DNA from: an uncultured Elusimicrobia bacterium | GTDB lineage: Bacteria > Elusimicrobiota > Elusimicrobia > Elusimicrobiales > UBA9959 | Assembly: GCA_937870775.1 (NCBI GenBank) | Contig: CALMZU010000318.1 | Coordinates: 1-37,416 of the forward strand | DNA length: 37,416 bases | Direction: 5' to 3' | Part shown: positions 3,081-24,424 of the stretch, in pieces | Position numbering within the stretch: the stretch's first letter is position 1 | How the letters are laid out: each line of letters starts with the position of its first letter | Made by a program: the position numbers and the translations under genes | The notes under the pieces: model-generated | What the model was told of the DNA's origin: nothing | The model's database searches: none | What the model saw: the letters and a program-made list of their open reading frames with translations, nothing else

Positions 3081-3084
3081 GGCC

Positions 3085-3426: not shown

Positions 3427-3433
3427 GCCTGCT

Positions 3434-3871: not shown

Positions 3872-3881
3872 GGAGCCCGAC

Positions 3882-5551: not shown

Positions 5552-5566
5552 GCAAGGAAATCTAAA

Positions 5567-6508: not shown

Positions 6509-6511
6509 AAC

Positions 6512-6997: not shown

Positions 6998-8065
6998 ATG
7001 GACATAGCCTCTATACGCAACTGGTTCGACACTTCCGTGGTGCTGGGCAACACGCCTTACGCCTACCTGGTGGCGCTGATAGCCTTCGGCGCGGCGCTGG
7101 CCCTGCTCTACATCATAAAGAACATCGGCATAGCCCGCCTGAAGGCGCTGGCCGAGAAGACCGAGACCGACCTCGACGACCTGGTGATCTCGCTGATAGA
7201 GAAGCTGCGCTGGTTCGAGTACCAGCTGGTGGCCCTCTACGTGGCCACCCGCTACCTGCAGCGCGCGCCGGTCTTCGACACCGCGCTCAAGGTGCTGCTG
7301 CTCCTGGTCTTCACCTACCGCGGCATCACCATAGTGCAGGACCTGCTCTCCTACTGGATCAACAAGATAGCCGCGCAGCGCCAGCTTTCCGGCGCGGCCA
7401 GGGCCTCGGTGGTGAACAGCACGCAGATCATCATGCGCGCGCTGGTCTGGGTGGCCGCGGTGCTGTTCATCCTCGACAACCTCGGGGTCAACATCTCGGC
7501 GGTGCTCACCGGCCTCGGCATCGGCGGCGTCGCGGTGGCCCTGGCCGCCCAGGCGATCCTCGGCGACCTGTTCAACTTCTTCGTGATACTGCTCGACAAG
7601 CCCTTCAACATCGGCGACTTCATAGTCTCCGACGCTGTCAGCGGCACGATAGAGCACATCGGCCTCAAGTCCACCCGCATACGCAGCATCTCCGGCGAGA
7701 TGGTGGTGGTCTCCAACTCCAACCTGCTGGGGTCCCGCATACGCAACTACAAGGACCTCACCAAACGCCGCGTGGTGTTCAAGACCGGCGTGACCTACGA
7801 GACTAAGCCCGAACTGCTCAGGCGCATCCCGTCGCTGATACAGGAAGCCGTGAAGTCGGTGCCCAAGTCGGAGTTCGACCGCTGCAACCTGTACAACTGC
7901 GGCGATTTCTCGCTGGATTTCGAGACGGTGTACTACCTCAACGAGCCGGATTACGCCGCCTACATGGCCGCGCACGAAAAGGTGCTGCTGGCCCTGATAG
8001 AATCTTTCGCCGCCGCCGGGGCCGAGATGGCCTATCCGACGCAGACGGTGCTGGTGAAGAAATGA
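6998..8065 (+). CDS. MscS-family mechanosensitive ion channel
   Basis: 355-residue small-conductance mechanosensitive channel that releases solutes on hypo-osmotic shock; inner membrane. About four or five N-terminal helices precede the pore helix, whose Gly/Ala pattern is plain: LTGLGIGGVAVALAAQAILGDLFNFFVILLDKPFNIGDFI (around residues 170-210). The beta domain follows (GTIEHIGLKSTRIRSISGEMVVVSNSNLLGSRIRNY), then the alpha/beta C-terminal domain. Length is in the usual MscS/YnaI-like range. Transcribed from its own leaderless-type promoter just after the hydrogenase terminator. The stop TGA is followed by an SD for the parvulin gene, so the two are probably co-transcribed. Confidence 0.92.
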   Translation: MDIASIRNWFDTSVVLGNTPYAYLVALIAFGAALALLYIIKNIGIARLKALAEKTETDLDDLVISLIEKLRWFEYQLVALYVATRYLQRAPVFDTALKVLLLLVFTYRGITIVQDLLSYWINKIAAQRQLSGAARASVVNSTQIIMRALVWVAAVLFILDNLGVNISAVLTGLGIGGVAVALAAQAILGDLFNFFVILLDKPFNIGDFIVSDAVSGTIEHIGLKSTRIRSISGEMVVVSNSNLLGSRIRNYKDLTKRRVVFKTGVTYETKPELLRRIPSLIQEAVKSVPKSEFDRCNLYNCGDFSLDFETVYYLNEPDYAAYMAAHEKVLLALIESFAAAGAEMAYPTQTVLVKK

Positions 8066-8076
8066 CGGAGGGGAAC

Positions 8077-8934
8077 ATGAAAAGAACGATACTGACGGCC
8101 GCGGCGCTGGCGCTGCTGGCCGGGACCGCGGCCGCGGCCGACCGGACGCTGGCGACGGTGAACGGGGAGAAGATAACGGCCGAGGACCTGACGAAGAAGC
8201 TCTGGTGGCAGCACGCCGCGCAGGGCCTGACCGACCTGGTGGACGAGCGGCTGGTGCTGCAGGAGGCCGCGAGGCTGGGCCTCAAGGCCGACGAGAAGGA
8301 AGTCGCGGCCCGCTACGCCGCCCTCGAGGCCGGCACGCAGGACAAGGCAGCTTTCGAGCGGAACCTGAAGTCGGTGGGCTGGAGCCCCGACGAGCTGCGC
8401 GGCCTGCTGCGCCGCCAGATGCTGATGCGCGCCGCGGTAATGGCGGCGAAGAAGATCGCCGTCACCGACGAGGACGCGAAGGCCTTCTTCGAGAAGAACA
8501 AGGACCGCCTCGGCGCCTCCGAGGCCGTGAAGCTGAGCCAGATCTACGTCAACACGAAGGCGGAGGCGGACGACGCCTACGACCTCCTCACCAACGTGGG
8601 TGCGGATTTCGCCAAGCTCTCCGCCCTGAAGTCCGCCGACGCCAGCCTCAAGAAGAACGGCGGCGCGCTGGGCTACATCTCGCGCGGCATGCTGCAGCCC
8701 GAGATAGAGAAGGAGGTCTTCGCGCTGAAGGCCGGCCAGTACACGAAGCCCATGCAGACCGGAGCGGGCTTCAGCATCTTCCGGGCCGACGAGATCAGGC
8801 AGGGCCAGCCCGCCTCCTACGAGAAGGTGCAGAACGACATAAAGACCGCCCTGCTGAACCAGGCCGTGACCCAGAAACTGCCCGAACTGGCGGCCGAGCT
8901 GAGGCAGAAGGCCAAGATAGCCGTAACGAAGTAG
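8077..8934 (+). CDS. Periplasmic PpiC/SurA-type peptidyl-prolyl isomerase
   Basis: 285-residue exported foldase. I chose ATG 8077 over 8062 because GGAGGGG lies 6 nt upstream of it and because it begins a clean signal peptide (MKRTILTAAALALLAGTAAAA, cleavage near residue 21). A SurA_N-like helical region (about 22-145, LVDERLVLQEAARLGL...) is followed by a parvulin domain: VKLSQIYVNTKAEADDAYDLL...GADFAKLSALKSADASLKKNGGALGYISRGMLQPEIEKEVFALKAGQYT....GFSIFRADEI. It assists folding of exported proteins. No lipobox is present, so it is soluble periplasmic and not PrsA-like. Whether isomerase activity is retained is unknown. Confidence 0.87.
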   Translation: MKRTILTAAALALLAGTAAAADRTLATVNGEKITAEDLTKKLWWQHAAQGLTDLVDERLVLQEAARLGLKADEKEVAARYAALEAGTQDKAAFERNLKSVGWSPDELRGLLRRQMLMRAAVMAAKKIAVTDEDAKAFFEKNKDRLGASEAVKLSQIYVNTKAEADDAYDLLTNVGADFAKLSALKSADASLKKNGGALGYISRGMLQPEIEKEVFALKAGQYTKPMQTGAGFSIFRADEIRQGQPASYEKVQNDIKTALLNQAVTQKLPELAAELRQKAKIAVTK

Positions 8935-8954
8935 CTTCGCAAAGCCGTAAAGAA

Positions 8955-8986
8955 GGCGGGGCCGGAATATCCGGCCCCGCCTTTTT
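8955..8986 (+). terminator. Terminator between convergent genes
   Basis: 11-bp inverted repeat GGCGGGGCCGG/CCGGCCCCGCC with loop AATAT, then TTTTT on the plus strand for the parvulin gene. On the minus strand the repeat is followed by TTCTTT, so it may also end the 9005-12519 operon. Confidence 0.85.
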
Positions 8987-9004: not shown

Positions 9005-9736
9005 TTACTGGGCGGCTTCGCCCTCGGAGGCTTCCTTCTTGCGCAGCAGCTCGTGCACTATGAAGTATACCACCATGCCGGCCAGTATTATCTGGGTGGC
9101 GTAGAAGTAGTTGCCGCCGGAGAAGGTGTACAGGTCGTCGAAGCGCCCGTACAGCAGAGAGAAGCGGGCCATCACGGTATTGCCGAACGACGCGCCGAAG
9201 TAGATCATCAGGAAGTAGACGCCGATGTTCGACACCTTCTTGAAGTGGCCCTGGTGCTCCACCGAGAAGAAGAAGTAGAACAGCACGCAGACCAGGCCCA
9301 CGGCCACGATCAGCGAGTTGACGATGGCCAGCGGCGTCATAGAGCTCACGCCCGCCAGCGGCTGCAGCGTGCCCATGATCTGGTTCATGAAGTCGGTGGC
9401 GAGGCTGGCCGGTATGGCGAGGCCCGCGCCGTAGCCCATCAGGAACGTGAAGCCGTACCGCGAGATCCACGAGATCTTCGGGATGAACTGGGTCATCAGC
9501 GAGAGGCCGAGGATCGACGGGACCAGCACCATCAGGTCGCCGTTGGAGATCGGGGTCCAGATCTTGGGGCCCCAGACCGAGAACACCGACACCTGGAACA
9601 GCCAGCCCATGCCGGCGCCGAGGTACAGGTGCTCCGCTATCTTGAAGAACGGATTGTCCTTGTAAAGGAAGCTGAACAGCGCTATCGTGAGGCCGGTCGC
9701 CAGCCAGGCTCCCGCTATCATCCAAGGTTCTGACAT
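9005..9736 (-). CDS. Polytopic membrane protein of the DUF6754-like operon
   Basis: 243-residue membrane protein; function not recognised. About six or seven hydrophobic helices. The N-terminus is MSEPWMIAGAWLATGLTIALFSFLYKDNPFFKIAEHLYLGAGMGW and the C-terminal cytoplasmic tail is charged (LLRKKEASEGEAAQ). A conserved-looking loop FKIAEHLYLGAGMGW and FSVWGPKIW could be family signatures. Last gene of the four-gene minus-strand operon, 24 nt downstream of its neighbour, with a strong AGGAGA Shine-Dalgarno. Its constant company with two other membrane proteins and an FN3/DUF6754-like protein suggests one membrane complex, which is inference. I see no transporter, protease or enzyme motif. Confidence 0.8.
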   Translation of the reverse strand: MSEPWMIAGAWLATGLTIALFSFLYKDNPFFKIAEHLYLGAGMGWLFQVSVFSVWGPKIWTPISNGDLMVLVPSILGLSLMTQFIPKISWISRYGFTFLMGYGAGLAIPASLATDFMNQIMGTLQPLAGVSSMTPLAIVNSLIVAVGLVCVLFYFFFSVEHQGHFKKVSNIGVYFLMIYFGASFGNTVMARFSLLYGRFDDLYTFSGGNYFYATQIILAGMVVYFIVHELLRKKEASEGEAAQ

Positions 9737-9760
9737 AGTTTTCTCCTGTCTCCTAAAGCC

Positions 9761-10582
9761 TTAAAGGAACTTGACCACCAGCAGTATGATGTTGGAGGTC
9801 AGTATCAGCACCAGCACCAGCAGGTTGCCGAGGTTCAGCGCGTCTATGCCGGAAGTGCCCTTGCCGGGCTGGCCCAGCAGCACCTCGTACTCGGCCGCGC
9901 CCTTCATGCCGCCGAGCAGGCCCTTGAGCTGGCCGGTCTGCAGGTAGGGGCCGTAGCCGGGCTGGCTGATGGCGGTGACGCCGCCCGCCACCGGCACGTT
10001 GAACTTGTCGCCGACGAGGGCGACCCAGGAATCCATGATGCCGGTGCCGGTCACGCAGACCACCATCGCCATGTTCTTGTAGTTCTTTATGCCGTTAAGC
10101 ACGGGCATCGTGGAGACGTCCCTGCCGTTGCGGTCCACGGTGTAGATGCCGTACATGTTGGAGGCCATCTGGGTCAGCGCCGCCACGACGTTGGGCATGT
10201 AGGGGAACACCACGTAGTCGACGCCGTCGACCTTATTGTATTCCTTGCTGACCTTGCTGAAGATCTCCTCTATCAGGCCGGTGGAGCCGGACACGTAGGT
10301 GACCACGCCGACGCGCAGGTTCTTCTTGAACGCGTGGCGCACCAGCGCGGTGGCCATCGGGTGCAGCTCGGGCTTGGTCGAGGGGTCATAATCGAGCGAC
10401 AGCATCAGGAAGGAGCCCGGGGGCAGGGCGTCTATGGCCTTGTATACCCTCTCGGTCTCCTGGGCTATGCTCTTGTTCGGCAGGCCGAGCGGCTTCATCA
10501 CCGGGATGAAGAGGGCCAGCGTGAGGAGCAGGAATATCCAGCGCCTGTCTATCTTGAAGAATTTCTGGAGCGTTTCTTTCAT
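9761..10582 (-). CDS. Membrane-anchored alpha/beta-domain protein, unknown function
   Basis: 273-residue protein, not recognised. One N-terminal helix (about residues 14-30, RRWIFLLLTLALFIPVM) with positive residues before it suggests a periplasmic soluble domain (about 40-235) that alternates beta strands and helices like a Rossmann fold (SFLMLSLDYDPS, NLRVGVVTYVSG, VDYVVFPYMPN, MAMVVCVTGTG). A C-terminal helix (about 248-272) follows. The last 50 residues (AAEYEVLLG...ALNLGNLLVLVLILTSNIILL) resemble the end of the DUF6754-like protein of the same operon. It lies 1 nt from the upstream gene's stop. A catalytic site is not evident. It could be a sensor or a receptor, which I cannot decide. 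Confidence 0.8.
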   Translation of the reverse strand: MKETLQKFFKIDRRWIFLLLTLALFIPVMKPLGLPNKSIAQETERVYKAIDALPPGSFLMLSLDYDPSTKPELHPMATALVRHAFKKNLRVGVVTYVSGSTGLIEEIFSKVSKEYNKVDGVDYVVFPYMPNVVAALTQMASNMYGIYTVDRNGRDVSTMPVLNGIKNYKNMAMVVCVTGTGIMDSWVALVGDKFNVPVAGGVTAISQPGYGPYLQTGQLKGLLGGMKGAAEYEVLLGQPGKGTSGIDALNLGNLLVLVLILTSNIILLVVKFL

Positions 10583-10583
10583 A

Positions 10584-11252
10584 TTAGTCCCTGCCGAGGT
10601 ACTGCTTCTCGATGCCGAAGATGATCTTGAACGAGGTGACCACCGCGCCTATGGCGATGCCGATCATGATGCCGCGCTTGCCGGCCACGGCGGGCACGGC
10701 CATGATCCAGCCTATCACCTGGGAGACGGTGTAGCCGGTCCAGCCGAGAACCTTGTCCCAGATCAGCTGGCCGAGCGGCACCTTGCCGAGTATCAGGATG
10801 AAGGCCGCGACGAACAGCACGAAGGCCTGCGCCGACTTTATCCTGAACGAGCGGTAGGCGGTGGACACTATGTAGAACGCGAGCACGGCGAACATCGTGC
10901 CGGCCAGAGCGTTGTAGATATGCCTGTAGGACCAGCCAAGGGCGGTTATGCTGCCCGCCTCCATCGTGCGGCCTTTTGTGACGATCGCGGGGACCACCAT
11001 GGCGAGGAAGCCGATAAACACGAAGATGCTGTAGCCCCAGCCGGGCACCTGCCTGGTTATCTTCCCGTAGTGGGTGCGGAACAGGCTGATGAGGCCCAGC
11101 ATGAAGGCGAAGGCCATCACTATGTTCTCCCACTTGCTGACGGTCTCCACGAAGTCCACGGCCACCTTGTGCGGGACATAATAGGAAAGCAGCGTAAGCA
11201 CACCGACCGTGAACACTATCGCGAGGGGTATGGTCTTTTTTATCAATTTCAT
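10584..11252 (-). CDS. Polytopic membrane protein, unknown function
   Basis: 222-residue membrane protein, not recognised. About six hydrophobic segments: near residues 7-25, 43-60, 72-90, 112-130, 140-158 and 195-212. N-terminus MKLIKKTIPLAIVFTVGVLTLLSYYVP. Between helices lie polar stretches such as FRTHYGKITRQVPGWG and STAYRSFRIKSA. Second gene of the operon: it begins directly after the DUF6754-like stop (TGATATG arrangement) and ends 1 nt before the next ATG, so the four products are probably made in step. No charged catalytic motif or known transporter signature is seen. Likely a structural membrane subunit, by inference only. Confidence 0.8.
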   Translation of the reverse strand: MKLIKKTIPLAIVFTVGVLTLLSYYVPHKVAVDFVETVSKWENIVMAFAFMLGLISLFRTHYGKITRQVPGWGYSIFVFIGFLAMVVPAIVTKGRTMEAGSITALGWSYRHIYNALAGTMFAVLAFYIVSTAYRSFRIKSAQAFVLFVAAFILILGKVPLGQLIWDKVLGWTGYTVSQVIGWIMAVPAVAGKRGIMIGIAIGAVVTSFKIIFGIEKQYLGRD

Positions 11253-11253
11253 A

Positions 11254-12519
11254 TCAATAGGCCTTGAAGACGTTGACTACCACGTTCACCAGGGTGTCCC
11301 AGTGGAACTTGGCGCCCAGCATCACGATGACGGTGCCGAAAAGCACCGCGAGCATGACGACGAGCTTGCCGAAGTCCTGCACCTTGAGGGCGCTCAGGAG
11401 CATCGGCTCCTTCGACAGGTAGGCGCCGGCGGCGTAGAGTTCCTCGCCGATGAGGGTGTAGTCGCAGGCGGTGAAGAAGAAGGGCAGCTGGCCCTCGGCG
11501 TCGGTGCCGGCTATCTGTATGGCGCCGTTGGCGGCGCCCACCTCGGCCAGGAGCAGGGCCTCGGCGGAGAAGTAGCCCATGAAGAACACGGCGGCCGGCT
11601 TCTCGCGGGCTATAAGGCCGTCGACCGAGGCGGCGAAGGAGAACTGGTCCTGGCTGACGAAGAAGTTGGAGTCGTCGCGGTAGGAGTCCGGGCGGCCGGC
11701 CTCCAGGTAGGACTGCTTCACGACCTCTTTGCAGACCGTCATCACGACGGGGTCGTAATGCGGTACCTGGATCATGCTGTCGTACTGCGCCACCTTCTTG
11801 GAGACCTCGCCCAGGATGAACGTCGAGGCTATCGTGCCGATGTAGCTGATCGGCTGGTTGCCGGTGGTGTAGTAGATCGGCTTGCCCATCTCGGTGGCGC
11901 GGCCGATCGCCTCGTCTATGGCGTCGAGGCCGGCTATGCGGCGTATGAACAGGCCCTTGCGCTTGGCGTGGGAGACGGCCCAGAAGAACACGCCCACCAG
12001 GACCACGAAGAGCACGACGTTATTGAGGCGGTCCAGGCGGAACCAGTTGCCCTTGGGCTCGGCGGAAACCGGCTCGGAGGCGGCGGTCACGACGCCGTTG
12101 ACGGAGGACTCCACCTTGAAATGCACGACGGTGCCGGCGGGCAGCTCGCCGAAGGCGGCGTTGAGGTCCACCTTCAGGGCATGCTCGCTCGAGGAGCCGT
12201 CCCAGGCCCAGAAGGGCAGGTCCACGCTCTTGCCGCTGTTGCCGGCGGCCTTGAATTCGTCGGCCTTTACCCAGCCGCCGTTCTCGACGGTGGAGGCGAA
12301 CACGGTGTACACCGTGTCGGGCGTCTCGGCGTGGCCGACCGGCCAGCGGAGCAGGGCGGCCCCGCCGACGTCGTAGGGCATGTCGGCGGCGGCGAAGCCG
12401 GTTATGGCCGCCGCCGGCTGGGCGGGGGCCTTCTTAACCGCGGCGGGCTTGGCCGCGAAGGCCGAGCCCGCCGTGAAAAGAAATAAAACGGCGAGATGGA
12501 GCGCTTTATTCTTGGTCAT
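11254..12519 (-). CDS. Exported FN3-like / DUF6754-like membrane protein
   Basis: 421-residue protein leading the operon. A signal peptide (residues 1-22, ..LFLFTAGSAFA) and an Ala/Pro/Lys linker precede a beta-rich region resembling fibronectin type III (about 48-155, GGAALLRWPVGHAETPDTVYTVFAS...GTVVHFKVESSVNG). A helix follows (about 166-186), with positive residues after it (SHAKRKGLFIRR), so the next domain should be cytoplasmic. That domain opens with GLDAIDEAIGRATEMGKPIYYTTG, which I associate from memory with DUF6754 proteins, and ends near residue 385 before a C-terminal helix. Its promoter is close to leaderless. The function is unknown; a DUF6754 profile search would settle the family. 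Confidence 0.75.
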   Translation of the reverse strand: MTKNKALHLAVLFLFTAGSAFAAKPAAVKKAPAQPAAAITGFAAADMPYDVGGAALLRWPVGHAETPDTVYTVFASTVENGGWVKADEFKAAGNSGKSVDLPFWAWDGSSSEHALKVDLNAAFGELPAGTVVHFKVESSVNGVVTAASEPVSAEPKGNWFRLDRLNNVVLFVVLVGVFFWAVSHAKRKGLFIRRIAGLDAIDEAIGRATEMGKPIYYTTGNQPISYIGTIASTFILGEVSKKVAQYDSMIQVPHYDPVVMTVCKEVVKQSYLEAGRPDSYRDDSNFFVSQDQFSFAASVDGLIAREKPAAVFFMGYFSAEALLLAEVGAANGAIQIAGTDAEGQLPFFFTACDYTLIGEELYAAGAYLSKEPMLLSALKVQDFGKLVVMLAVLFGTVIVMLGAKFHWDTLVNVVVNVFKAY

Positions 12520-12530
12520 ATCTGAAGAAT

Positions 12531-12559
12531 AATATACCTTTTAAGGACCCCTGTATCAA
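12531..12559 (-). promoter_or_regulatory. Sigma70-type promoter of the DUF6754-like operon
   Basis: On the minus strand, TTGATA (12554-12559), 17 nt, TATATT (12531-12536). The -10 ends 11 nt before the ATG at 12519, leaving a predicted leader of about 4 nt and no Shine-Dalgarno. The -35 directly abuts the T-run of the preceding operon's terminator. Confidence 0.75.
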
Positions 12560-12592
12560 GAAAAAAACGGACGGCCCGCTGGGGCCGTCCGT
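12560..12592 (-). terminator. Intrinsic terminator of the yej operon
   Basis: Read on the minus strand: ACGGACGGCCC, 4-nt loop, GGGCCGTCCGT, then TTTTTTTC. It lies 30 nt after the last ATPase gene and runs straight into the -35 box of the next operon. Confidence 0.88.
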
Positions 12593-12621
12593 CCGACGTG
12601 AAAACGCCCCGCGGAGGGGGG

Positions 12622-13608
12622 TCACACGTAAGGGCACGCGGCGAAGTGGCCGGGGGCCTTTTCGACGAGCTCCGGCACCTTCAGCGCGCACTCGGGCTTG
12701 GCCATGTGGCAGCGGGTACGGAAGCCGCAACCCGACGGTTTCGCGAGCGGGCTCGGCACGTCGCCCTTGAGTATGATGCGCTCGCCGCGGGTCTTGTGCG
12801 GGTCCGGCAGCGGGGCGGCCGACATCAGCGCCTTCGTATACGGGTGAAGCGGGTTCCTGTTGACGTCGCGGCTGGAGCCTATCTCCACCATGTTGCCGAG
12901 GTACATCACGGCTATGCGGTCGCTGATATGCTCCACGACCGACAGGTCGTGGGCGATGAAGAGGTAGGAGAGGCCGAACTCGGCCTGCAGGTCCTCGAGC
13001 AGGTTTATGATCTGCGCCTGTATGGAGACGTCGAGCGCGCTGACCGGCTCGTCGGCTATGATGAAGGCGGGATTCGTGGCGAGGGCGCGGGCCAGGCCGA
13101 CGCGCTGGCGCTGGCCGCCGGAGAACTCGTGCGGGTAGCGGGCGGCGTAGGCGGCGCGCAGGCCCACCTTCTCGAGCAGCCAGGCCACCTTCTCGCGTTT
13201 CTCCTTGGCGCTCATGCCGGGCATGTGTATGTCGAGCGGCTCGCTGACTATGGCCTCAACCGACATGCGGGGGTTAAGGGACGAGTACGGGTCCTGGAAG
13301 ACCATCTGCATGCGCGAGCGGAAAGGGCGCATGGCCTTGTGGTTCAGGCCCGCGATGTTGGACACCTTGCCGTCGGCGCCGGCGAAGAGCACCTCGCCCG
13401 ACGTGACCGGCGCCAGGTTTATCAGCGCTTTGCCCACCGTGGTCTTGCCGCAGCCGGACTCGCCCACCATGCCCAGCGTTTCGCCGGGCTTAACGGAGAA
13501 GGAAACCCCGTCGACGGCCTTGACCTCGCCGACCTTGCCGAGGAAGAGGCCGCCGTGTATGGGGAAATGCACCTTGAGGTCTTTTACTTCCAGTATGTTC
13601 TCGCTCAT
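12622..13608 (-). CDS. Oligopeptide ABC transporter ATPase (DppF/OppF-like, YejF C-half)
   Basis: 328-residue ATPase of the peptide uptake transporter. The ORF track begins at 13692, but residues before [15 protein letters not shown] overlap the upstream ATPase out of frame. The ATG at 13608, 2 nt after that gene's stop and preceded by AGAGGG, fits the family. Motifs: Walker [11 protein letters not shown]-loop [11 protein letters not shown], signature [14 protein letters not shown], Walker [14 protein letters not shown]-loop IAHDLSVV. The C-terminal oligo_HPY region carries cysteines (GCGFRTRC...EC...ACP). E. coli YejF fuses two such ATPases in one chain; here they are separate genes. Confidence 0.93.
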
Positions 13609-13610
13609 GT

Positions 13611-14603
13611 TCAGGCCCTCTTTTTGCATTTGTGGCACCTTACCAGCCGGCCGGGGGAGACTTCCACCAGTTCGGGCTCGCTCTCGCGGCACTCGGGGCC
13701 GGCCTCGGGGCAGCGGTTGTTGAACTTGCAGCCCTGCGGGAAGCTGAGTATGTCGGGCACCATGCCCTCTATCACGGGCAGGCGTTTGCCGGGCTCGTTC
13801 TTGAAGCCGGGCAGGGATTTCAGCAGGCCTATCGTGTAGGGGTGCATCGGCTCGTCGAAGAGCGGCTTCACCTCGGAGATCTCCTGTATGCGGCCGCCGT
13901 ACATCACGGCCACGCGCTGGCAGGTCTCGGCCACCACCGCGAGGTCGTGCGTGATGAGCAGTATCGCGGCGTCCTTGGTCTTCTTCTTGACGTCCAGCAT
14001 CAGGTCCAGGATCTGGGCCTGTATCGTAACGTCGAGGGCGGTGGTGGGCTCGTCGGCTATCAGCAGCGCCGGGTCCGAGGCCAGCGCCATGGCTATCATC
14101 ACGCGCTGGCGCATGCCGCCGGAGAACTGGTGCGGGTAATCCTTCAGGCGGGCCTTAGGGGACGGTATGCCTACGAGACCCAGCATCTCGGCCGCCCGCT
14201 CCTCCACCTGTTTCTCCGTCAGCTGCTCCTGGTGGAAGCGTATGGCCTCCATCAGCTGCCAGCCTATGGAGAAGACCGGGTTCAGCGAGGTCATCGGCTC
14301 CTGGAAGATCATCGAGATCTCCTTGCCGCGGATCTTCCTCATCTCGGGATAGGTCAGCTTAAGCAGGTCCCGGCCGCGGAAGATGATCTCGCCGCCGGTG
14401 ATCTTGCCGGGGGGATCGGGGATGAGGCGCAGTATGCTCAGCGCGGTCACGGACTTGCCGCAGCCTGACTCGCCGACGAGGCCCAGCACCTCGTTCTCGC
14501 AGATGTGGAAATCCACGCCGTCTACGGCCTTGGCTACCTTGTCCTCCACCTGGAAGCAGGTCTTGAGGCCCTTAACCTCGAGAAGTTTTTTCGTTCCGGT
14601 CAT
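13611..14603 (-). CDS. Oligopeptide ABC transporter ATPase (DppD/OppD-like, YejF N-half)
   Basis: 330-residue ATPase that pairs with the product of the next gene to power the Yej-type permease. Motifs: Walker [14 protein letters not shown]-loop [17 protein letters not shown], signature [14 protein letters not shown], Walker [20 protein letters not shown]-loop ITHDLAVV. The C-terminal oligo_HPY domain has four cysteines ([15 protein letters not shown]...RCHKC), which in some DppD/OppD proteins bind a [4Fe-4S] cluster. It starts 4 nt after the permease gene and ends 2 nt before the second ATPase, so the five genes form one operon. Confidence 0.93.
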
Positions 14604-14607
14604 ATTG

Positions 14608-15993
14608 TTACCTGAGCCTCGAGAAGACCTTCGGGTCGAAAGCCTCGCGCACGGCCTCGCCTATCATCACCACCGAGTACAGCGTAACGGCGAGCGCGAT
14701 GGAAGGGGTCAGTATCAAATGCGGGTAGTACTTCAGGTACTTCATGCCCTGGTCCAGCAGCGCGCCCCAGCTCGGCGTGCCGACGGGCAGGCCGAAACCC
14801 AGGTAGTCGAGCGAGACCAGAGAGCCTATGGTGCCCACTATGCTGAACGGCGCGAAGGTCACAAGCGGCACCAGCGAGTTAGGCAGGATGTGCTTCATCA
14901 TCACCGACCATTCGGTGGCGCCCATCGCGACGGCCGCCTGCACGTAGTCGCGGGCCTTCTCGCGGTAGAACTCGCCGCGGATATAGTAGGAGATGCCGAC
15001 CCAGCCCTGCAGCAATACCATCAGCGAGACCAGGAGCAGGAAGGTGGGCTGCACTATCGCGGCCACGATGATCAGCATGAACAGGAACGGTATGGCGGCC
15101 CAGATCTCTATCAGGCGCTGTATCAGTATGTCGGTCCAGCCGCCGAAATAGCCCATCACGCCGCCGATGATTATGCCTATCAGGTAGCCGGTGAACGAGA
15201 CTATCAGCGCGAAGGCCATGGAGATGCGGAAACCGTACACCAGCTGCGCGAAGACGTCGGTGGCGGAGTCGTCGGTGCCCAGCAGGTGGTCGGCGCCGGG
15301 CTTATGCGGCGGGCGGCCGGGCATGTCCATCAAATGCTCGCGCGGGGAATAGGGGTACACCGGCATTATGATGGAGGCCTTGCCGTCGGCGAAGGCGGCC
15401 TTGGCCGCCGTGACGTTCTTCAGGTCGGCCTCTATGTCCGGTATGGTCTCCTGCAGGTCCTGGTAGTCCTGGCGCTCCTCGGGCGTGGCCTTGGGGCCGG
15501 GCTTCACGGCCAGCTGGGCGCGCACGTCGGCTATCTCCGCCTCGAGCGCCTTCACCTGCCCGTCGAAGACCGACGGGTCCCGCTTCTCCGCGGCGAAGAG
15601 GCGGTAGTCCACCTCGCCGTCGCCGGTCTGGCCGTAGTCCGAGCGCTTCAGCACGGCGGAGGGGGACTTGAAGAACAGTATGCCGTCGGTCCACTCGGCC
15701 ACCGCCGGGAACGCGAAGTGCCCGCCGTAGCGTATGAACAGCGGCTTGTTGTTCACCATCAGCTCGAGGAAGAGCGACATCACGAACAGCGTGGAGATGG
15801 CCACGAAGGAATAGTAGCCGCGCTTTATGGTCTTGAAGCGCTTCATGCGCTTCTCCCAGTGCGGGGCCACCTTCATGTCGAAGCCGAGCAGCGTGCCGCC
15901 TCTGACGTAGAGCCACGGTATGGCCCGGAACGTCAGCAGGTAGCCTGCGGCAAGAAGTACGGCGGTCTCAATAAGTTTTATGATGACGGTCAT
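14608..15993 (-). CDS. yejE: YejE-like ABC permease with coiled insertion
   Basis: 461-residue inner-membrane permease. After an extra N-terminal helix (residues 5-25), the YejE-type region KRFKTIKRGYYSFVAISTLFVMSLFLELMVNNKPLFIRYGGHFAFPAV is close to E. coli YejE. The core BPD_transp domain (about 240-460) has LLGTDDSATDVFAQLVYGFRISMAF and the EAA loop GATEWSVMMKHILPNSLVPLV. It is about 120 residues longer than E. coli YejE: residues about 138-205 form a charged, heptad-like insertion (VKALEAEIADVRAQL...ETIPDIEADLKNV) in the periplasmic loop before the core. It starts on an ATGA overlap with yejB. In E. coli the Yej system imports microcin C and short peptides. Confidence 0.88.
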   Translation of the reverse strand: MTVIIKLIETAVLLAAGYLLTFRAIPWLYVRGGTLLGFDMKVAPHWEKRMKRFKTIKRGYYSFVAISTLFVMSLFLELMVNNKPLFIRYGGHFAFPAVAEWTDGILFFKSPSAVLKRSDYGQTGDGEVDYRLFAAEKRDPSVFDGQVKALEAEIADVRAQLAVKPGPKATPEERQDYQDLQETIPDIEADLKNVTAAKAAFADGKASIIMPVYPYSPREHLMDMPGRPPHKPGADHLLGTDDSATDVFAQLVYGFRISMAFALIVSFTGYLIGIIIGGVMGYFGGWTDILIQRLIEIWAAIPFLFMLIIVAAIVQPTFLLLVSLMVLLQGWVGISYYIRGEFYREKARDYVQAAVAMGATEWSVMMKHILPNSLVPLVTFAPFSIVGTIGSLVSLDYLGFGLPVGTPSWGALLDQGMKYLKYYPHLILTPSIALAVTLYSVVMIGEAVREAFDPKVFSRLR

Positions 15994-17036
15994 TTGCCGA
16001 ACCTTATCCTGGGGTCTATCATGGCCCAGATCACGTCGGAGAAGATGTTGCCGGTCAGCCTTATCAGCACCAGGAACACCATCGTACCGAGTATCACCGG
16101 GTAGTCGCGCTGCACCACGGAATTGAAGCTCAGGAGGCCCATGCCGGGGATGTTGCAGGTCTTTTCAATAAGGAAAGAACCGGCGAACAGCAGGCCCAGG
16201 GCGTTGCCGATACCGACGGTCAGCGGTATCAGCGAGTTGCGCATCGCGTGCACGAAGATGACGCGGCGCTCGGAGAGGCCCTTGGCGAAGGCGGTGCGCA
16301 CGTAGTCCGCGCCCAGGTTGTCCAGGAGGGAGTTCTTCATCAGCACCGTCATCGTGGCGAAGCCGCCCATGATATAGCCGAACACCGGGATGGCGGTGTG
16401 GTGCAGCTGGTCGACGATCTTGCCGAAGAAGGTGAGCTCGGCCCAGTTGTCGGACCTGAAGCCGCCGAGCGGGAACAGGTCGAAGTAGCTGCCGCCGCCG
16501 AGGAACACCATCAGCATCAGGCAGGCTACGAAGCCGGGTATGGCGTAGCCGAGGAACACCAGCATGGACGTGGCAGTGTCGTAGCCGGACTTATGCCTTA
16601 TGGCCTTGGTGACGCCGAGCGGCACGCAGATCACCCATGAAGCCAGGTAGCCTATGAGGCCGAAGTAGATGGAGATGGGGAACTTGGAGATTATCACGTC
16701 GAGCACCGGCTCGCTGTACACGTAAGAGCGGCCGAAGTCGAGGTGCATGATGCCCCACAGCCAGGCGCCGTACCCGACGGGGATGCTCTTGTCGAGATGG
16801 TAGTATTTCTTCAGGTCCTCCATCGCGGCGGCGGGGATCTGCAGTTCGCCCTGCTCGTTGGCCATGCCGGCCGAACCGCCCTCCTGCATCATGGCCATCT
16901 TTATCTGCAGCTGGGCCTGCTCTATGGGGCCGCCGGGCACCACGCGCAGTATGGCGTACACCATGAAGGTGATAGCTATGAAGGTCACCGGTATCAGCAG
17001 CAGCCGGCGTATGAAATAAGTTGTCATTCCGTGCAT
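15990..17036 (-). CDS. yejB: YejB-like ABC permease
   Basis: 348-residue inner-membrane permease of the peptide/nickel (BPD_transp_1) family. Close agreement with E. coli YejB is visible in VPGGPIEQA near the N-terminus, FLGGGSYFDLFPLGGFRSDNW, GGFATMTVLMKNSLLDNLGADYVRTAFAKGLSERRVIFVHAMRNSLIPL (EAA loop) and the C-terminus VQRDYPVILGTMVF...IDPRIRFGK. About six helices. It lies 1 nt after yejA and overlaps yejE by ATGA. Length matches YejB (364). The GGGSYFDLFPL motif separates YejB from generic DppB. Confidence 0.9.
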   Translation of the reverse strand: MHGMTTYFIRRLLLIPVTFIAITFMVYAILRVVPGGPIEQAQLQIKMAMMQEGGSAGMANEQGELQIPAAAMEDLKKYYHLDKSIPVGYGAWLWGIMHLDFGRSYVYSEPVLDVIISKFPISIYFGLIGYLASWVICVPLGVTKAIRHKSGYDTATSMLVFLGYAIPGFVACLMLMVFLGGGSYFDLFPLGGFRSDNWAELTFFGKIVDQLHHTAIPVFGYIMGGFATMTVLMKNSLLDNLGADYVRTAFAKGLSERRVIFVHAMRNSLIPLTVGIGNALGLLFAGSFLIEKTCNIPGMGLLSFNSVVQRDYPVILGTMVFLVLIRLTGNIFSDVIWAMIDPRIRFGK

Positions 17037-17037
17037 A

Positions 17038-18816
17038 TCAGTTCCAGGGCCTCACTTCGGTCTCTCCGACGGGCAGGCTGCCGCCGTTCTTCAGGGCCTC
17101 GTTCATGGCCTTCTCCTTGGCGGGGTCCAGCCACCAGTTGGAGACTATCGAGCGGTAATCGCCGATCTTGGGGAAATAGTTCGGCGCATGGCCGAACTTG
17201 TTGTAGTAAAGTACGCGGCTGAAACCGGAGCTCCAGCCCAACGCATAAGGATAGACGCGGAAGATAAGCTCGTCGATGCGGTGTATGATGCGGCGCTGGT
17301 CCTTTATGTTGAAGGCCGTGTCGTATTCCTTGCACAGCGCGTCCACCTCGGCGTTCTTGAAGCCGGGAAGGTTATTGTTATCGTTCTTGTCCGCCAGCGC
17401 GCCGCTCCAGGAATTTTCCGGGTTGGGGAAGAGCAGGCCGCCCCAGGAGGCATGATAGAGCGTGAAGTTACGCTCCCCGACCTTTTTCATGATGGTATTG
17501 TAGTCGGTCTGTTTGAGGTCCAGTTTTATACCGGCGGCCTTCAGGTCCTCTTGTATCACCTTGTAGATGCGGGTGAAACCGGGATCGCCGTATTCCAGGG
17601 TTATTTCGAAAGGCTTGCCATCCTTCGTCAGCCAGCCGTCCTTGTTGCGTTCGGCCCAGCCGGCGCGGGCCAGCAGCCGCTTGGCCATGCGCGGGTTATA
17701 GCGTATCTTCGGGTTGGTGGGGTTGGCCCAGTCGGAGCCCGGGTGGTAGCTGTCTATGAAGCCGTACTCGCCGAAGAAAAGCTTGTCTATGAGCTTCTCG
17801 CGGTTCAACAGCAGCGCGAAGGCCTTGCGCACGTTGCGGTCGTTGAAAGGCGGTTTGCGCATGTTGAACACGAAGCCCGAGACGCCCTGCGGCACCTTGG
17901 TGTAGACCTTGCGCTTCTGCACTATGCCGCGCTTCACCTTGTCGAAGTCCGACTCCTGCAGCCAGCGCTGCGATTTGTTGACCGGGTAGTAGTCCAGCTC
18001 GCCTTTCTTGAACTTCTCGAAGGCCAGTTCTTCGTCCATCACCACGGTCCAGACCAGCTTGTCGAAATTGTTCAGGCCTATATTGCCGCGTTCCTTCTCG
18101 CCCCAGTAGTTCTTGCGGCGGGTGAGCGTTATGGAGATGGGCTTCTTTATGTCCTCGGGCTTCAGCTCATAGGGCCCGGAGCCCGTCTGCATCTTCCAGT
18201 TATAGTCCTCGAGGTACTTGTCGCCGGTAAGCGCGCGCATTTCCTTCGCCTGGTAGATCTGCATGCCGCTGAAATACAGGAAAAGGCGCCAGTGCAGTTT
18301 CTTGGTGTGCACCGAGACCACGTCGGGGCTGACGGCCACCGGCTTGTCGAAGCTCTCGCCCCACATCATCGCCGAGTAGGGGTCCTTTATGTCCTTCCTG
18401 ACGCGGAACTCCCAGGTGGCCACCACGTCATCGGCCGTCACCGGGGTGCCGTCGGCCCAGCGGGCCTTGGGGTTTATATGGAAATAGAAGGTGCGCTTGT
18501 CCGGGGAGATCTTCCAGTAATCGGCCAGCACCGGGATGTACTCCATGGTCTCCGGGTGCAGCGTCAGCAGGCTCTCGTAGACCATGCCCTGCAGCTGGCC
18601 GGTAGTGGAAAGATTGGAGTTGGGACCCTCGGTGCGCAGCGTCGCCGGGAAGTCGGACCAGTAGGAGCGCAGCGTGCCGCCCTTCACGGCCTCGGTGGAG
18701 CCCATGAGGGGGAAGTTATTGTTGGACTGCCAGCCGGCCGGGTTGAAAGCGGCCGCGAGGCAGGGGGTGAGGAGCAGCAGCGAAAGGACAGCGAAGGTTT
18801 TATTGTTTTTCAGCAT
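17038..18816 (-). CDS. yejA: YejA-like oligopeptide-binding protein (SBP family 5)
   Basis: 592-residue periplasmic solute-binding protein. Signal peptide in residues 1-23 (FAVLSLLLLTPCLAAAF). The mature part shows the family 5 pattern: VKGGTLRSYWSDFPATLRTEGPNSN, YESLLTLHPETMEYIPVLADYWKISPDKRTFYFHINPKARWADGTPVTADDV, SGPYELK and VRKAFALLLNREKLI. Length and the YejA-type opening (FNPAGWQ...FPLMGSTEAVKGGTL) fit YejA over DppA. First gene of the five-gene operon. Upstream, TACTAT/TATCAT sequences about 35 nt before the ATG could be a -10, but the -35 is weak, so I list no promoter. Probable role is short-peptide capture from outer-membrane flux. Confidence 0.88.
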   Translation of the reverse strand: MLKNNKTFAVLSLLLLTPCLAAAFNPAGWQSNNNFPLMGSTEAVKGGTLRSYWSDFPATLRTEGPNSNLSTTGQLQGMVYESLLTLHPETMEYIPVLADYWKISPDKRTFYFHINPKARWADGTPVTADDVVATWEFRVRKDIKDPYSAMMWGESFDKPVAVSPDVVSVHTKKLHWRLFLYFSGMQIYQAKEMRALTGDKYLEDYNWKMQTGSGPYELKPEDIKKPISITLTRRKNYWGEKERGNIGLNNFDKLVWTVVMDEELAFEKFKKGELDYYPVNKSQRWLQESDFDKVKRGIVQKRKVYTKVPQGVSGFVFNMRKPPFNDRNVRKAFALLLNREKLIDKLFFGEYGFIDSYHPGSDWANPTNPKIRYNPRMAKRLLARAGWAERNKDGWLTKDGKPFEITLEYGDPGFTRIYKVIQEDLKAAGIKLDLKQTDYNTIMKKVGERNFTLYHASWGGLLFPNPENSWSGALADKNDNNNLPGFKNAEVDALCKEYDTAFNIKDQRRIIHRIDELIFRVYPYALGWSSGFSRVLYYNKFGHAPNYFPKIGDYRSIVSNWWLDPAKEKAMNEALKNGGSLPVGETEVRPWN

Positions 18817-18895: not shown

Positions 18896-21061
18896 CTAGC
18901 GGCGGGCGGCGTCCACGTTCTTCATTATTATTTCCTTTACCACGTTGAAAGGCGGCGGGCCCGCGGGCTTGTCCTGCAGTTCGTAGACCGATACCCTGTT
19001 GAAAGGCCGCCCGTCCTGGGTCTCCGCGGAGGCGAACACTTCCTTTACGTGCCTGTCCCAGAAGTCGTTGAAGACGGCGCGGGCGCGGTCGTCCCAGTAG
19101 AACATCCGGTAGTCGCGGCCCAGCCTTATGCCCTCGGCCAGGTTCAGCGTCAGGTGGGTCACACCGTCGGCCCTGAGCCTGGCGTACAGGTCCTCGCCGT
19201 CCTTCGAGGCGGCGGCGTACTCCACTATGGCGGTGCGGTCGTATACCGAGCTCACTATGAAGTCCCGCTTCAGGTAGAAGCTCCTCTCGTCGCCTATCAT
19301 CAGCGCCTTGGAACCTGGCGGGGTGTTCTCGTTGACGAACTTCAGCGCGGCGTAGCCGCTGTACGGGTACGTGGGCTGAGTATGCGACAAGTAGTCGTCG
19401 GCGCCTACCGCGCCGGTGACCGGGCGCCAGCGGCCCTGCATGTAGAAGAGCAGCGCGCCCCAGTATACGCAGAGCAGGCAGACCGCCAGCGCCAGGCCGC
19501 GCAGCAGGCGTTTGAGCCCGGCGTGGCCAGGCGAGAACAGCGAGGCCGCTATCAGCAGCGCGGCGGCCGGGTAGGCCGGCATCAGGAATCGCACCATCGT
19601 CGACGTGACCGACCAGCCCAGCCAGGCGGCCAGGAAATAGGCCCAGAGGCCGGCAAGAACTCCCGCGGCCGGCCCGGCGGCGAGCAGGAAGGAGAGCGGC
19701 AGCAGCAGCAGGAACAGCGGGGAGAAATACTCGGAGTTGGCTATCTGCCCCATCGTGGCCTTCCACGGCGTGACCAGCCAGGAGAGCGGGGTAAGCGGCC
19801 CCATCTGCGCGGCGTGGGCGGCAAAGTCCCTGAGTTTCTGCGGATCGGTGCCGTGCCCCGCGCCGAACAAATTCAGCGCGAAGGGGAAGACCGGGTTGCC
19901 GGTATACAGCCAGTTCTTCGCGAGCCACGGCAGCACGAACAGCGACGAGACCAGCACGAAGACGGCCAGGTTGCGCAGCGCCGCCGCAGGGCGGGCGCGG
20001 CCGCTCCAGGCGTAGGCCGCCATCACGCCGGCCACGGCGAAGACGCCGGTGTACTTCACGCCCATCGCGAGGCCGCAGAAGCAGGCGGCCAGCCACAGCC
20101 AGCGCGGCTCCTCGTCGCGGCGCAGCAGAACGGCGTACAGTCCCAGAACGGAGAACAGCGTAAGCAGCATCTCGGTACCGGCCGACCAGGAGGCCATCAT
20201 GGCGTGCGGCACGGAGCAGAACACGGCCGCGGCCAGCAGGCCGGTCCTCAGCGAGAACCAGCGCAGCGACACGGCCAGCACGGCGCCCGCGATCAGCGCG
20301 CCGGCGAGGAAATTGACGAGCTTCGCCAGCACCGGGCCTTTCACCAGCAGCGCCGAGGCGTATATCATACCGTGGGTGAAAGGCATGTCGGAATAGAAAT
20401 TGAAAGGCATCCGGGCGAAGCCGTGCTTTATCACGTAGAAGTTGGGCACCGCCAGGTGGTAGACCAGCGAATCGTAGAAGATCTCGGGGCTCAGCGCGCC
20501 GGCCAGGTTCACCAGCAGCGCCAGCAGCAGAACGCCGAGCGCGGCCAGGTCGCCGGCGCGCGGGGACGGGAGCCGCGGCAGCGGCGCCGCCGGGCGGCGC
20601 TTCAGGTCCCAGGCGCCCCAGGCGCAGGCCGCGGCAAGGAAGGCCAATACCGGCCAGGCGTACAGCAGGCCGGCCGTCGACAGTACGAAGACGAAAGCGG
20701 CGAGCAGGCCGAGACCCGCGCCGCAGCAGAACACCGCCTCCTCGACGGCGTTCAGGAAAGAGAAGCCAGCGGCTTTGAGCGCGGCGCGGCCGGCGGCGAA
20801 GCAGGCGAACATGAACAGCGCTGCCGCGGCGAGGTCCAGCAGGTGGCCGGGCAGGGCCGAGAACAGGCCGGCGTACTGGCCCGGCGAGAGGATCACCGCC
20901 AGGGCGGAGAGGTCAGGCTTGAAGCGGGCGAAATAGGACTTCAGCACGGCCGCGGCCCAGGCGGCGGCCAGCGGCCAGACCAGCCAGGAGGGGAAGCGCC
21001 CTTCCTGCGGCACTGCGGCGGGCACCGCCTTAACGTTCTCTTTCCTGTGTTTTTTAGCCAT
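18896..21061 (-). CDS. GT-C-type membrane glycosyltransferase (ArnT/PMT-like)
   Basis: 721-residue polytopic protein with about 12-13 hydrophobic helices and a C-terminal periplasmic domain (about 555-721). The first large periplasmic loop has ALSPEIFYDSLVYHLAVPNFYVIKHGF, an acidic FYDSLxYH motif of the GT-C fold type, which uses lipid-phosphate sugar donors. YTGNPVFPFALNLFG later matches the PMT/DUF2029-like family. The N-terminal tail is basic (MAKKHRKENVK). Acceptor and sugar cannot be told. It stands alone between the yej operon and the MutL-like operon. Its ATG follows 4 nt after the U-run of the upstream terminator, with no Shine-Dalgarno, so expression may depend on read-through or an unseen promoter. 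Confidence 0.8.
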   Translation of the reverse strand: MAKKHRKENVKAVPAAVPQEGRFPSWLVWPLAAAWAAAVLKSYFARFKPDLSALAVILSPGQYAGLFSALPGHLLDLAAAALFMFACFAAGRAALKAAGFSFLNAVEEAVFCCGAGLGLLAAFVFVLSTAGLLYAWPVLAFLAAACAWGAWDLKRRPAAPLPRLPSPRAGDLAALGVLLLALLVNLAGALSPEIFYDSLVYHLAVPNFYVIKHGFARMPFNFYSDMPFTHGMIYASALLVKGPVLAKLVNFLAGALIAGAVLAVSLRWFSLRTGLLAAAVFCSVPHAMMASWSAGTEMLLTLFSVLGLYAVLLRRDEEPRWLWLAACFCGLAMGVKYTGVFAVAGVMAAYAWSGRARPAAALRNLAVFVLVSSLFVLPWLAKNWLYTGNPVFPFALNLFGAGHGTDPQKLRDFAAHAAQMGPLTPLSWLVTPWKATMGQIANSEYFSPLFLLLLPLSFLLAAGPAAGVLAGLWAYFLAAWLGWSVTSTMVRFLMPAYPAAALLIAASLFSPGHAGLKRLLRGLALAVCLLCVYWGALLFYMQGRWRPVTGAVGADDYLSHTQPTYPYSGYAALKFVNENTPPGSKALMIGDERSFYLKRDFIVSSVYDRTAIVEYAAASKDGEDLYARLRADGVTHLTLNLAEGIRLGRDYRMFYWDDRARAVFNDFWDRHVKEVFASAETQDGRPFNRVSVYELQDKPAGPPPFNVVKEIIMKNVDAARR

Positions 21062-21121: not shown

Positions 21122-22246
21122 TTATTTTTCCAGCACCTCTATGTTGGCGCGGGGCACCACGATGACCTCGCCGCCGTCGAGCTGGACCTCCAGCACGCGG
21201 GCGTGGCTCTCGCTGCCTATCACGGTCAGTTCCGGCGGCAGGCTCTTCACGGTGCCTATCACGCCGAAGTGCGGCTCGCGTATGATGCGGATGGGGTCGC
21301 CGGGCTCTATCCAGCCGCGGCCCTGGTCCTTCTTGCACTCGGTGACGTGCTTGGGGTAGCCGGGCACGATGATCTCGGGGCGCATCACGCCTGCGCGTAT
21401 CTGCGTGGCGCCGCTGACGCTGGCCTTCTCGCCGTTGCGCGACGAGAGCAGCTTGAAGGTGTACTCGGCCATAGGGATCATGCCGAAGCCCTCGGTCACG
21501 ATCAGCGTGATGCCGATGTTCTCGGTGCCGGTCTCGGCCACGCCGATGTCGTAGCCCAGCAGCTGGCGCAGGTCGCGGTCGTGTATGCCTCCCACCACTA
21601 TGGCGTTCACGCCCAGTTCCACGGCGCGCTTGATGGTGGCCAGGCTGGCGTGCTTGCCGCCTATCACGATCTTGCCCTTGTAGGTGTCCTTGATGTCCTC
21701 GGGGGTCAGGTCCTCGTCGGGGCTGTTGACCGCGACGACGATCTCGCCGTTGGTCTCGCCGCCGACGCCGAAGATGCCCTGTATGAAGGTGCCCTCGGCC
21801 TCGAGAGTGACGCCGAAATCGGGGGTGACCTCCACGACCTTGCCCTTCACGTAGGCCTTTATCGGCAGCACCTTGGGGGGCTCGCGCAGCAGTACCTGGC
21901 CGGTCACGTTGGAGATGCTCTCCACGGTGCCGTCCACCGTCGATTCTATGGTGGTCTTGAACCACTTCAGGAAGGGCTTGTTCTCGGCGATGGTCTCGCC
22001 CTTCTTAACCGGGTCGCCTTCCTTCTTCAGCATGAAGCCGGGAACTTCCTCGGGGCCGACCGCGAGGCGGTTGGCCACGTTGATGGAGAACACCTTGCCG
22101 GGCAGCTCGGTCTTCGCCACCACGTCGAGGGCGTCCACCTGCTGGTCCAGCGCCGCCAGCACCTTGCCGGGGATCGGCAGCAGGCGCTTCTTCTTGAGCA
22201 GCGTGCAGGGCATTACCTTGAGTCCGGGGGTATAAGCATGTGCCAT
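21122..22246 (-). CDS. Barrel-sandwich/KOW-like protein partnered with MutL-like ATPase
   Basis: 374-residue soluble protein, not recognised as a named family. The N-terminal third looks like a lipoyl/RnfC-type barrel-sandwich hybrid (GFMLKKEGDPVKKGETIAENKPFLKWFKTTIESTVDGTVESISNVTGQVLL, residues about 70-122). The middle alternates strands and helices (GKIVIGGKHASLATIKRAVELGVNAIVVGGIHDRDLRQLLGYDIG, about 195-240). A KOW-like beta segment lies near the end (PGDPIRIIREPHFGVIGTVKSLPPEL, about 318-343). No signal peptide or TM helix. A strong AAGGAG SD precedes it, 22 nt after the MutL-like stop. It probably acts with that ATPase (inference). Lipoylation is unlikely, because no DK-A motif is obvious. 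Confidence 0.8.
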   Translation of the reverse strand: MAHAYTPGLKVMPCTLLKKKRLLPIPGKVLAALDQQVDALDVVAKTELPGKVFSINVANRLAVGPEEVPGFMLKKEGDPVKKGETIAENKPFLKWFKTTIESTVDGTVESISNVTGQVLLREPPKVLPIKAYVKGKVVEVTPDFGVTLEAEGTFIQGIFGVGGETNGEIVVAVNSPDEDLTPEDIKDTYKGKIVIGGKHASLATIKRAVELGVNAIVVGGIHDRDLRQLLGYDIGVAETGTENIGITLIVTEGFGMIPMAEYTFKLLSSRNGEKASVSGATQIRAGVMRPEIIVPGYPKHVTECKKDQGRGWIEPGDPIRIIREPHFGVIGTVKSLPPELTVIGSESHARVLEVQLDGGEVIVVPRANIEVLEK

Positions 22247-22268
22247 AAATTTCTCCTTGTATCGTCCT

Positions 22269-24062: not shown

Positions 24063-24387
24063 TTGGCTCTCCTTGGTTGCCGCCCTCCGGCTTATCGTCC
24101 GCGCCGAGCTTGTCGACGAGGTAGGAAACGGCCTTGGGGTTCTCGAGCAGCTTAGCGTACCTGCTTACTTCGTCCTTTTCGAAAACGATGTTGAGTATGG
24201 GGGTAAGGAACGACGCGCTCTGCGCCCCCAGGTCGTGCACGGGCCGGGTGCTCTCCAGCGCGAAGGCCGCCAGGTCGCCCAGTTTGCGGGCCCTCACCTT
24301 GACGGCCAGCGCGTCGAGCAGCGCCTTCTCCTCCGCCGTAGGCTCCTGCGGCTCGGGTATCTTGAAGGCGTTGTCCCATATTCCCAT
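24043..24387 (-). CDS. Small hypothetical protein leading the MutL-like operon
   Basis: 114-residue soluble protein with no match I recognise. Mostly helical by composition (PTAEEKALLDALAVKVRARKLGDLAAFALESTRPVHDLGAQSASFLTPILNIVFEKDEVSRYAKLLENPKAVSYLVDKL), with a disordered acidic/basic tail. The segment RARKLGDLAAFALESTRPVHDLGAQSASFLTPIL could be an amphipathic docking helix pair. It is preceded by a good leaderless-type promoter and its last 20 nt overlap the MutL-like gene, which argues that it is real and works with the other two products. A small adaptor subunit is one possibility, which is inference. Confidence 0.75.
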   Translation of the reverse strand: MGIWDNAFKIPEPQEPTAEEKALLDALAVKVRARKLGDLAAFALESTRPVHDLGAQSASFLTPILNIVFEKDEVSRYAKLLENPKAVSYLVDKLGADDKPEGGNQGEPNVKERP

Positions 24388-24395
24388 GCTTTTTT

Positions 24396-24424
24396 ATTCT
24401 AATAAAAATAAAAGAATAAGCCAA
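24396..24424 (-). promoter_or_regulatory. Leaderless-type promoter of the MutL-like operon
   Basis: Minus strand TTGGCT (24419-24424), 17 nt AT-rich spacer, TAGAAT (24396-24401), then AAAAAAGC and ATG at 24387. The 8-nt gap and lack of any Shine-Dalgarno imply transcription starting at or next to the start codon. Confidence 0.7.

Follow-up and report, generated by a model that had tools for sequence, protein, structure and literature searches.

A conserved DUF6754 membrane gene set of Elusimicrobia and other bacterial phyla and its linkage to a MutL-type ATPase gene

The four-gene operon and its products

The 37,416-nucleotide (nt) stretch of DNA analysed here, referred to as the window, is a contig of an uncultured Elusimicrobia bacterium (CALMZU010000318.1, assembly GCA_937870775.1). 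It carries on its minus strand four genes for membrane proteins, A to D (ABCD), the first of which encodes a DUF6754 domain, and on the same strand a block of three genes, S, MutL and E, belonging to the same conserved unit (Table 1). A preliminary description of the sequence had proposed that the four genes are tightly packed, with spacings of 1-24 nt, and that they possess their own promoter and terminator. Both points have been borne out, with open reading frames at 9005-12519 (-) separated by gaps of 1, 1 and 24 nt, a promoter-like site ending ~11 nt ahead of A and a hairpin following D. Since full-length alignments with relatives from other phyla, down to ~30-40% identity, are obtained for each of the four proteins, they can be regarded as the products of real genes. 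The host genome (2.64 Mb) holds a single DUF6754 copy.

Protein A matches the Pfam family DUF6754 (PF20539) with 359.5 bits (E=1e-107) over profile positions 2-252 of 257, against a gathering cut-off of 27 bits. The domain, described at first as DUF6754-like, is indeed cytoplasmic and of this kind, but is DUF6754 itself and present over its full length. Family-averaged hydropathy, for which 35 relatives of A were aligned, has revealed in this protein a signal or transmembrane segment, a second transmembrane segment after the exported part and a third at the C-terminus. A comparison with FN3 structures by Foldseek has identified the exported part as an FN3 fold (best E 1.7e-4), as had been suspected; this portion of the AlphaFold2 model is confident, and the meaningful Foldseek matches of A are limited to it. 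Some copies of A are devoid of the FN3 part, which is therefore dispensable.

The remaining proteins also agree with the preliminary description, which had listed two polytopic membrane proteins and an anchored alpha/beta-domain protein. About six transmembrane segments each have been detected in B and D, and two in C, which was modelled by AlphaFold2 as a Rossmann-like domain between two transmembrane helices with a predicted local distance difference test score (pLDDT) of 90.3. The positive-inside charge rule places the DUF6754 domain of A inside the cell and the alpha/beta domain of C outside. No Pfam or NCBIfam family is matched above cut-off by B, C or D, and a profile search with A to D in Pfam, NCBIfam and PDB profiles returned no solved or curated secretion or transport component. 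A fold search for a specific relative of C yielded generic Rossmann-like matches only (best E 3e-3, TM-score ~0.3). As expected from the preliminary description, no known transporter or secretion complex has emerged from Pfam, NCBIfam, PADLOC and PDB profiles, nor from Foldseek, where the fold comparison with solved components covered C and the FN3 part of A. A and C appear by eye to have their elements arranged alike, and their best local profile match falls in the corresponding region (P ~0.07); profile-profile comparison gave no significant support to common descent either of C and the DUF6754 part of A or of D and B.

Conservation of the gene set and its linkage to MutL and E

More than 100 loci were collected and mapped with profiles. 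The closest relatives of A occur in Elusimicrobia metagenome-assembled genomes (60-76% identity), with further relatives in Edwardsbacteria, UBP2, WOR-3 and metagenome-assembled genomes labelled Thermotogota. B, C and D were found in order beside 62 of the 67 distinct copies of A sampled from three phylum-level groups (Elusimicrobiota, Edwardsbacteria/UBP2 and a WOR-3-type phylum), in agreement with the four-gene neighbourhood first suggested. In three genomes A-B stands isolated, with C found elsewhere in two of them. The DUF6754 system occurs in 34/61 genomes when the host and its close relatives are considered, in all ten genomes of the Edwardsbacteria/UBP2 phylum (2-5 copies) and in 54 of 60 of the WOR-3-type phylum (1-5 copies). 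Only 20 of 199 Elusimicrobiota genomes carry it, mostly within one family, and it was found in none of 14 control genomes. A concatenated tree of ABCD groups the Elusimicrobia sequences as one clade (support 1.0); outside Elusimicrobia there are at least two old paralogous groups, often arranged in tandem with one copy from each.

The idea of an undescribed four-gene membrane system has thus withstood both conditions named beforehand as able to refute it, a failure of the four genes to co-occur elsewhere and structural hits to a known transporter or secretion complex, the latter as far as the fold comparison reached. The conserved unit is larger, however, and also comprises MutL, E and S. MutL matches PF13941 with 426.5 bits over profile positions 1-449 of 450 (Pfam cut-off 27 bits), continues for ~115 amino acids (aa) past the end of the model and is the sole copy in the host genome. 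On reading the sequence, the glycine-rich ASKHA-type motifs DCGSTTTK, VDIGGATTD and GSGG are seen to be kept. Hence, while A to D lack a recognised enzyme motif in Pfam and NCBIfam, as originally stated, a recognised ATPase family is involved, given that the conserved unit includes a MutL-type protein. E shows ~50% identity between phyla and weakly resembles the N-terminal barrel-sandwich domain of RnfC, from the Rnf electron transport complex; the RnfC_N match (19.3 bits) lies below the cut-off of 25.6, and no Rnf subunit genes were noticed in the linked loci that were read. S holds the same position in Elusimicrobia and is homologous to S2 of Edwardsbacteria/UBP2 (E=7e-11).

Loci of Elusimicrobia, Edwardsbacteria/UBP2 and WOR-3-type genomes have MutL and E upstream of ABCD, as a rule with S or S2 ahead of them, and the direct linkage is observed on both sides of the deepest split of the concatenated tree. 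In the window, a glycosyltransferase and an oligopeptide transporter lie between ABCD and the S-MutL-E block (21122-24387). The linkage is also seen in genome G239, where the genes are rearranged as MutL-E-A-B-D-C. Among 54 genomes, E was present in 40 of the 42 with ABCD components and in one of the 12 without them (Fisher p ~1e-8, not corrected for shared ancestry), and the presence and absence of MutL follow ABCD in the same pattern; both genes track ABCD also where they lie apart from it. An apparent exception, genome G032, has its MutL at a contig end (locus L136), which can explain the missing genes. Most genomes possess one MutL-E pair alongside several ABCD sets, which suggests that the single pair serves all sets of a genome.

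In one WOR-3-type genome (G118; locus L167, 7760-10612 (-)), paralogues of MutL and E form a single fused open frame of 950 aa. Several WOR-3-type genomes carry a second, divergent MutL-E pair (four loci; 30-43% identical to that of the window), which in one locus (L168) adjoins NfeD-like and SPFH-like genes. In one relative (locus L192, G002:C302), in-frame stop codons break MutL, a sign perhaps of misassembly or of gene decay. Nine loci from two phyla have lipoate-protein ligase genes close to ABCD or MutL-E. Lipoylation of E by such a ligase is not claimed, because the candidate lysine in the second hairpin of E is replaced by arginine in one relative.

As a system, ABCD with MutL-E-S appears to be new, the mechanism being the weaker part of the proposal. 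No paper on DUF6754 (PF20539) was found, nor any description of the system or helpful account of membrane partners of GlmL-type ASKHA proteins, in the open literature searched, subscription literature lying outside the search; the system is rated as new on two grounds, the absence of DUF6754 from the papers searched and the lack of a tested known complex with the same parts. The Pfam entry covers a domain of unknown function only, leaving B, C, D, MutL, E and the operon outside it. Six proteins with no assigned function are conserved in three or more phylum-level groups, in two of which nearly all sampled genomes carry them, and are often duplicated, a level of conservation which indicates that the system is likely important to these bacteria. 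The carriers belong to several barely studied bacterial phyla, and naming the parts brings what had been isolated hypothetical proteins together as a single system open to testing.

A possible ATPase-coupled membrane complex and its alternatives

A tentative reading of these data is that the genes encode a cell-envelope membrane complex coupled to an ATPase, with MutL-E acting on the cytoplasmic domain of A. In such a model, A, B, C and D would form one inner-membrane complex, with B and D as its membrane core, the conserved DUF6754 domain facing the cytoplasm, and the Rossmann-like domain of C and the optional FN3 domain of A exposed outside. Cytoplasmic MutL, an ATP-hydrolysing ASKHA protein of the Hsp70/actin/hydantoinase fold class, would dock on DUF6754 together with E as adaptor, and the pair may drive or reset conformational cycling of the membrane portion. 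Topology, gene order, the MutL-E fusion and the type of ATPase together suggest such a physical complex, its docking and its ATP-driven cycle. Two lines of evidence, the membrane topology and the neighbours in Elusimicrobia, suggest a role in the envelope, and the likeliest job of the complex would be the handling of exported or envelope components. In the PilM-PilN-PilO alignment complex of type IV pili, an ASKHA-fold cytoplasmic protein likewise works with small inner-membrane proteins; the comparison is one of analogy, with no sequence relation to pilus proteins in Pfam or NCBIfam. More doubtful is the proposal of a new kind of membrane machine, in which a MutL-family ASKHA ATPase would power a four-subunit complex through adaptor E, in 1-5 copies in nearly all sampled Edwardsbacteria/UBP2 and WOR-3-type genomes. 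From the association, GlmL/MutL ATPases may also function beyond amino-acid fermentation.

Several observations weigh against an ATPase-coupled envelope complex. The co-occurrence test is uncorrected for shared ancestry, and most WOR-3-type ABCD copies are located far from MutL-E. Much of the DUF6754 part of A was modelled by AlphaFold2 at low confidence (pLDDT 40-60), so that a docking surface on this domain cannot be named. The links to a peptidyl-prolyl isomerase (PPIase) and a PMT-like glycosyltransferase are established only in Elusimicrobia, and the neighbours in WOR-3-type genomes display no envelope theme in a Pfam scan.

Unlinked ABCD copies of this type would also be expected if ABCD worked alone and MutL-E were an independent conserved pair sharing genomes and neighbourhoods by chance, and standalone MutL-E pairs do exist (three loci). 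This is rather improbable, with linkage of MutL-E to ABCD recorded in three phyla, also in the rearranged order of G239, and with the matched presence and absence of the two gene sets. A service of ABCD in ion or energy handling, by regulating or coupling to a V/A-type ATPase, an Mrp antiporter or a membrane hydrogenase, is unlikely, although less so. One Edwardsbacteria/UBP2 copy of ABCD is placed inside a V/A-ATPase operon between subunits C and F, with roadblock-like genes on both sides (five loci), a V-ATPase subunit-I gene lies near ABCD in one WOR-3-type genome, MnhB/MnhG-like genes were read by eye near A in three loci, and a NuoH-type membrane hydrogenase or complex-I-like cluster is nearby in several Elusimicrobia. 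Nonetheless, A to D have no Pfam match as V/A-type ATPase subunits, no conserved acidic residue is found within the transmembrane helices of B or D, and a Pfam scan of 145 flanking proteins uncovered no dominant family or theme, of this kind or any other. The AC39 subunit (subunit C) of the V-ATPase is absent from the host genome, and a V-ATPase partnership as a general rule is rejected for this reason.

The roadblock-like genes flanking that operon copy would also fit a signalling or polarity scaffold, in which DUF4388 and roadblock proteins read out the state of the membrane complex. A DUF4388 gene and two roadblock-like genes, sometimes with a lipoate ligase, adjoin MutL-E-ABCD in Edwardsbacteria/UBP2 and WOR-3-type loci, but none turned up in the Elusimicrobia loci, and the roadblock-like genes match only weakly (E 2e-4 to 1e-3), which leaves a scaffold quite improbable. 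Equally low is the probability that MutL acts as a GlmL-like chaperone or reactivase of a cobalamin enzyme, with ABCD anchoring or supplying the enzyme or its cofactor. Over ~450 residues, MutL does belong to the same ASKHA family as the GlmL/MutL accessory protein of glutamate mutase, and PF13941, the GlmL model NF040745 and the ornithine-pathway GlmL-like model all match it. Its scores are nevertheless below the NCBI cut-offs of both named families (233.7 bits against 475 for the equivalog NF040745; 215 against 600 for the ornithine-pathway model) and, unlike GlmL, the MutL of the window has an extra C-terminal region and is partnered by E and a membrane gene set. In the window, its surroundings are S, E, the glycosyltransferase and an ASH-domain protein, with no mutase gene among them, and loci read by eye elsewhere, with no mutase profile scan, likewise revealed neither a mutase nor a B12-binding gene next to MutL. 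The probability that remains beyond the ATPase-coupled complex and these four alternatives is assigned to mechanisms not thought of.

Genomic neighbours and other features of the window

The features of the window are collected in Table 1. The constant neighbours in Elusimicrobia are the GT-C glycosyltransferase, found as a PMT-like gene between E and A in most loci, and the SurA-like PPIase, which adjoins ABCD in ~24 genomes and is on the same strand in two; in two Elusimicrobia genomes, MscS, PPIase and ABCD are arranged on one strand. The Opp insertion is common to six Elusimicrobia genomes at this spot and is absent in a close relative (L031).

Table 1. Coordinates of the ABCD operon, the S-MutL-E block and neighbouring features in the window
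Feature	Position	Strand	Length	Basis or remark
Gene A: signal/transmembrane segment, periplasmic FN3, transmembrane segment, cytoplasmic DUF6754, transmembrane segment	12519-11254	-	421 aa
Gene B: polytopic membrane protein, ~6 transmembrane segments	11252-10584	-	222 aa	family conserved across phyla, transmembrane prediction
Gene C: transmembrane segment, Rossmann-like alpha/beta domain, transmembrane segment	10582-9761	-	273 aa	AlphaFold2, alignment
Gene D: polytopic membrane protein, 5-6 transmembrane segments	9736-9005	-	243 aa	cross-phylum family, transmembrane prediction
Promoter-like site of ABCD, TTGATA-17-TATATT	12531..12559	-		10/12 consensus matches; pattern match only
Terminator closing the upstream Opp operon, separates Opp from ABCD	12565..12594	-		13-bp stem, then T-rich tail
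Bidirectional terminator-like hairpin between D and the convergent PPIase gene	8950..8986	.		17-nt arms, 94% complementary
MutL: GlmL-like ASKHA ATPase	22269..24062	-	597 aa	PF13941
Gene E: barrel-sandwich-like N-terminus and conserved alpha/beta region	21122..22246	-	374 aa	weak RnfC_N match
Gene S: small protein, first gene of the S-MutL-E unit	24043..24387	-	114 aa	homology, position
Weak promoter-like site ahead of S	24396..24424	-		9/12 consensus matches; pattern match only
GT-C membrane glycosyltransferase (PMT_2-like)	18896..21061	-	721 aa	PF13231, E=1e-6
Complete oligopeptide ABC transporter OppA-B-C-D-F, inserted, outside the core	12622..18816	-		Pfam
SurA/parvulin-type PPIase, neighbour conserved in Elusimicrobia only	8062..8934	+		PF13145
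MscS-type mechanosensitive channel, neighbour conserved in Elusimicrobia only	6998..8065	+		PF00924

Other origins of the genes have also been considered and set aside. A defence origin was rejected with no PADLOC match for seven proteins, and a mobile origin with no plasmid match for A or E and no meaningful PHROG match for A to D.

Additional aspects of the neighbourhood have been recorded. In three loci, tandem ABCD sets stand beside genes for 2Fe-2S, 4Fe-4S and FAD-dependent oxidoreductase proteins. The genes at ~15-6913 (+) of the window, which include those of a 4Fe-4S protein and a NuoH-like subunit, form a cluster that probably encodes a membrane-bound hydrogenase or complex-I-like enzyme. 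A long permease of 461 aa, with a transport domain that begins no earlier than residue 273, is encoded within the Opp cluster at 14608-15993, and a protein with a HYDIN/ASH-type Ig-like domain is encoded at 24485-26173 (+), divergent from S.

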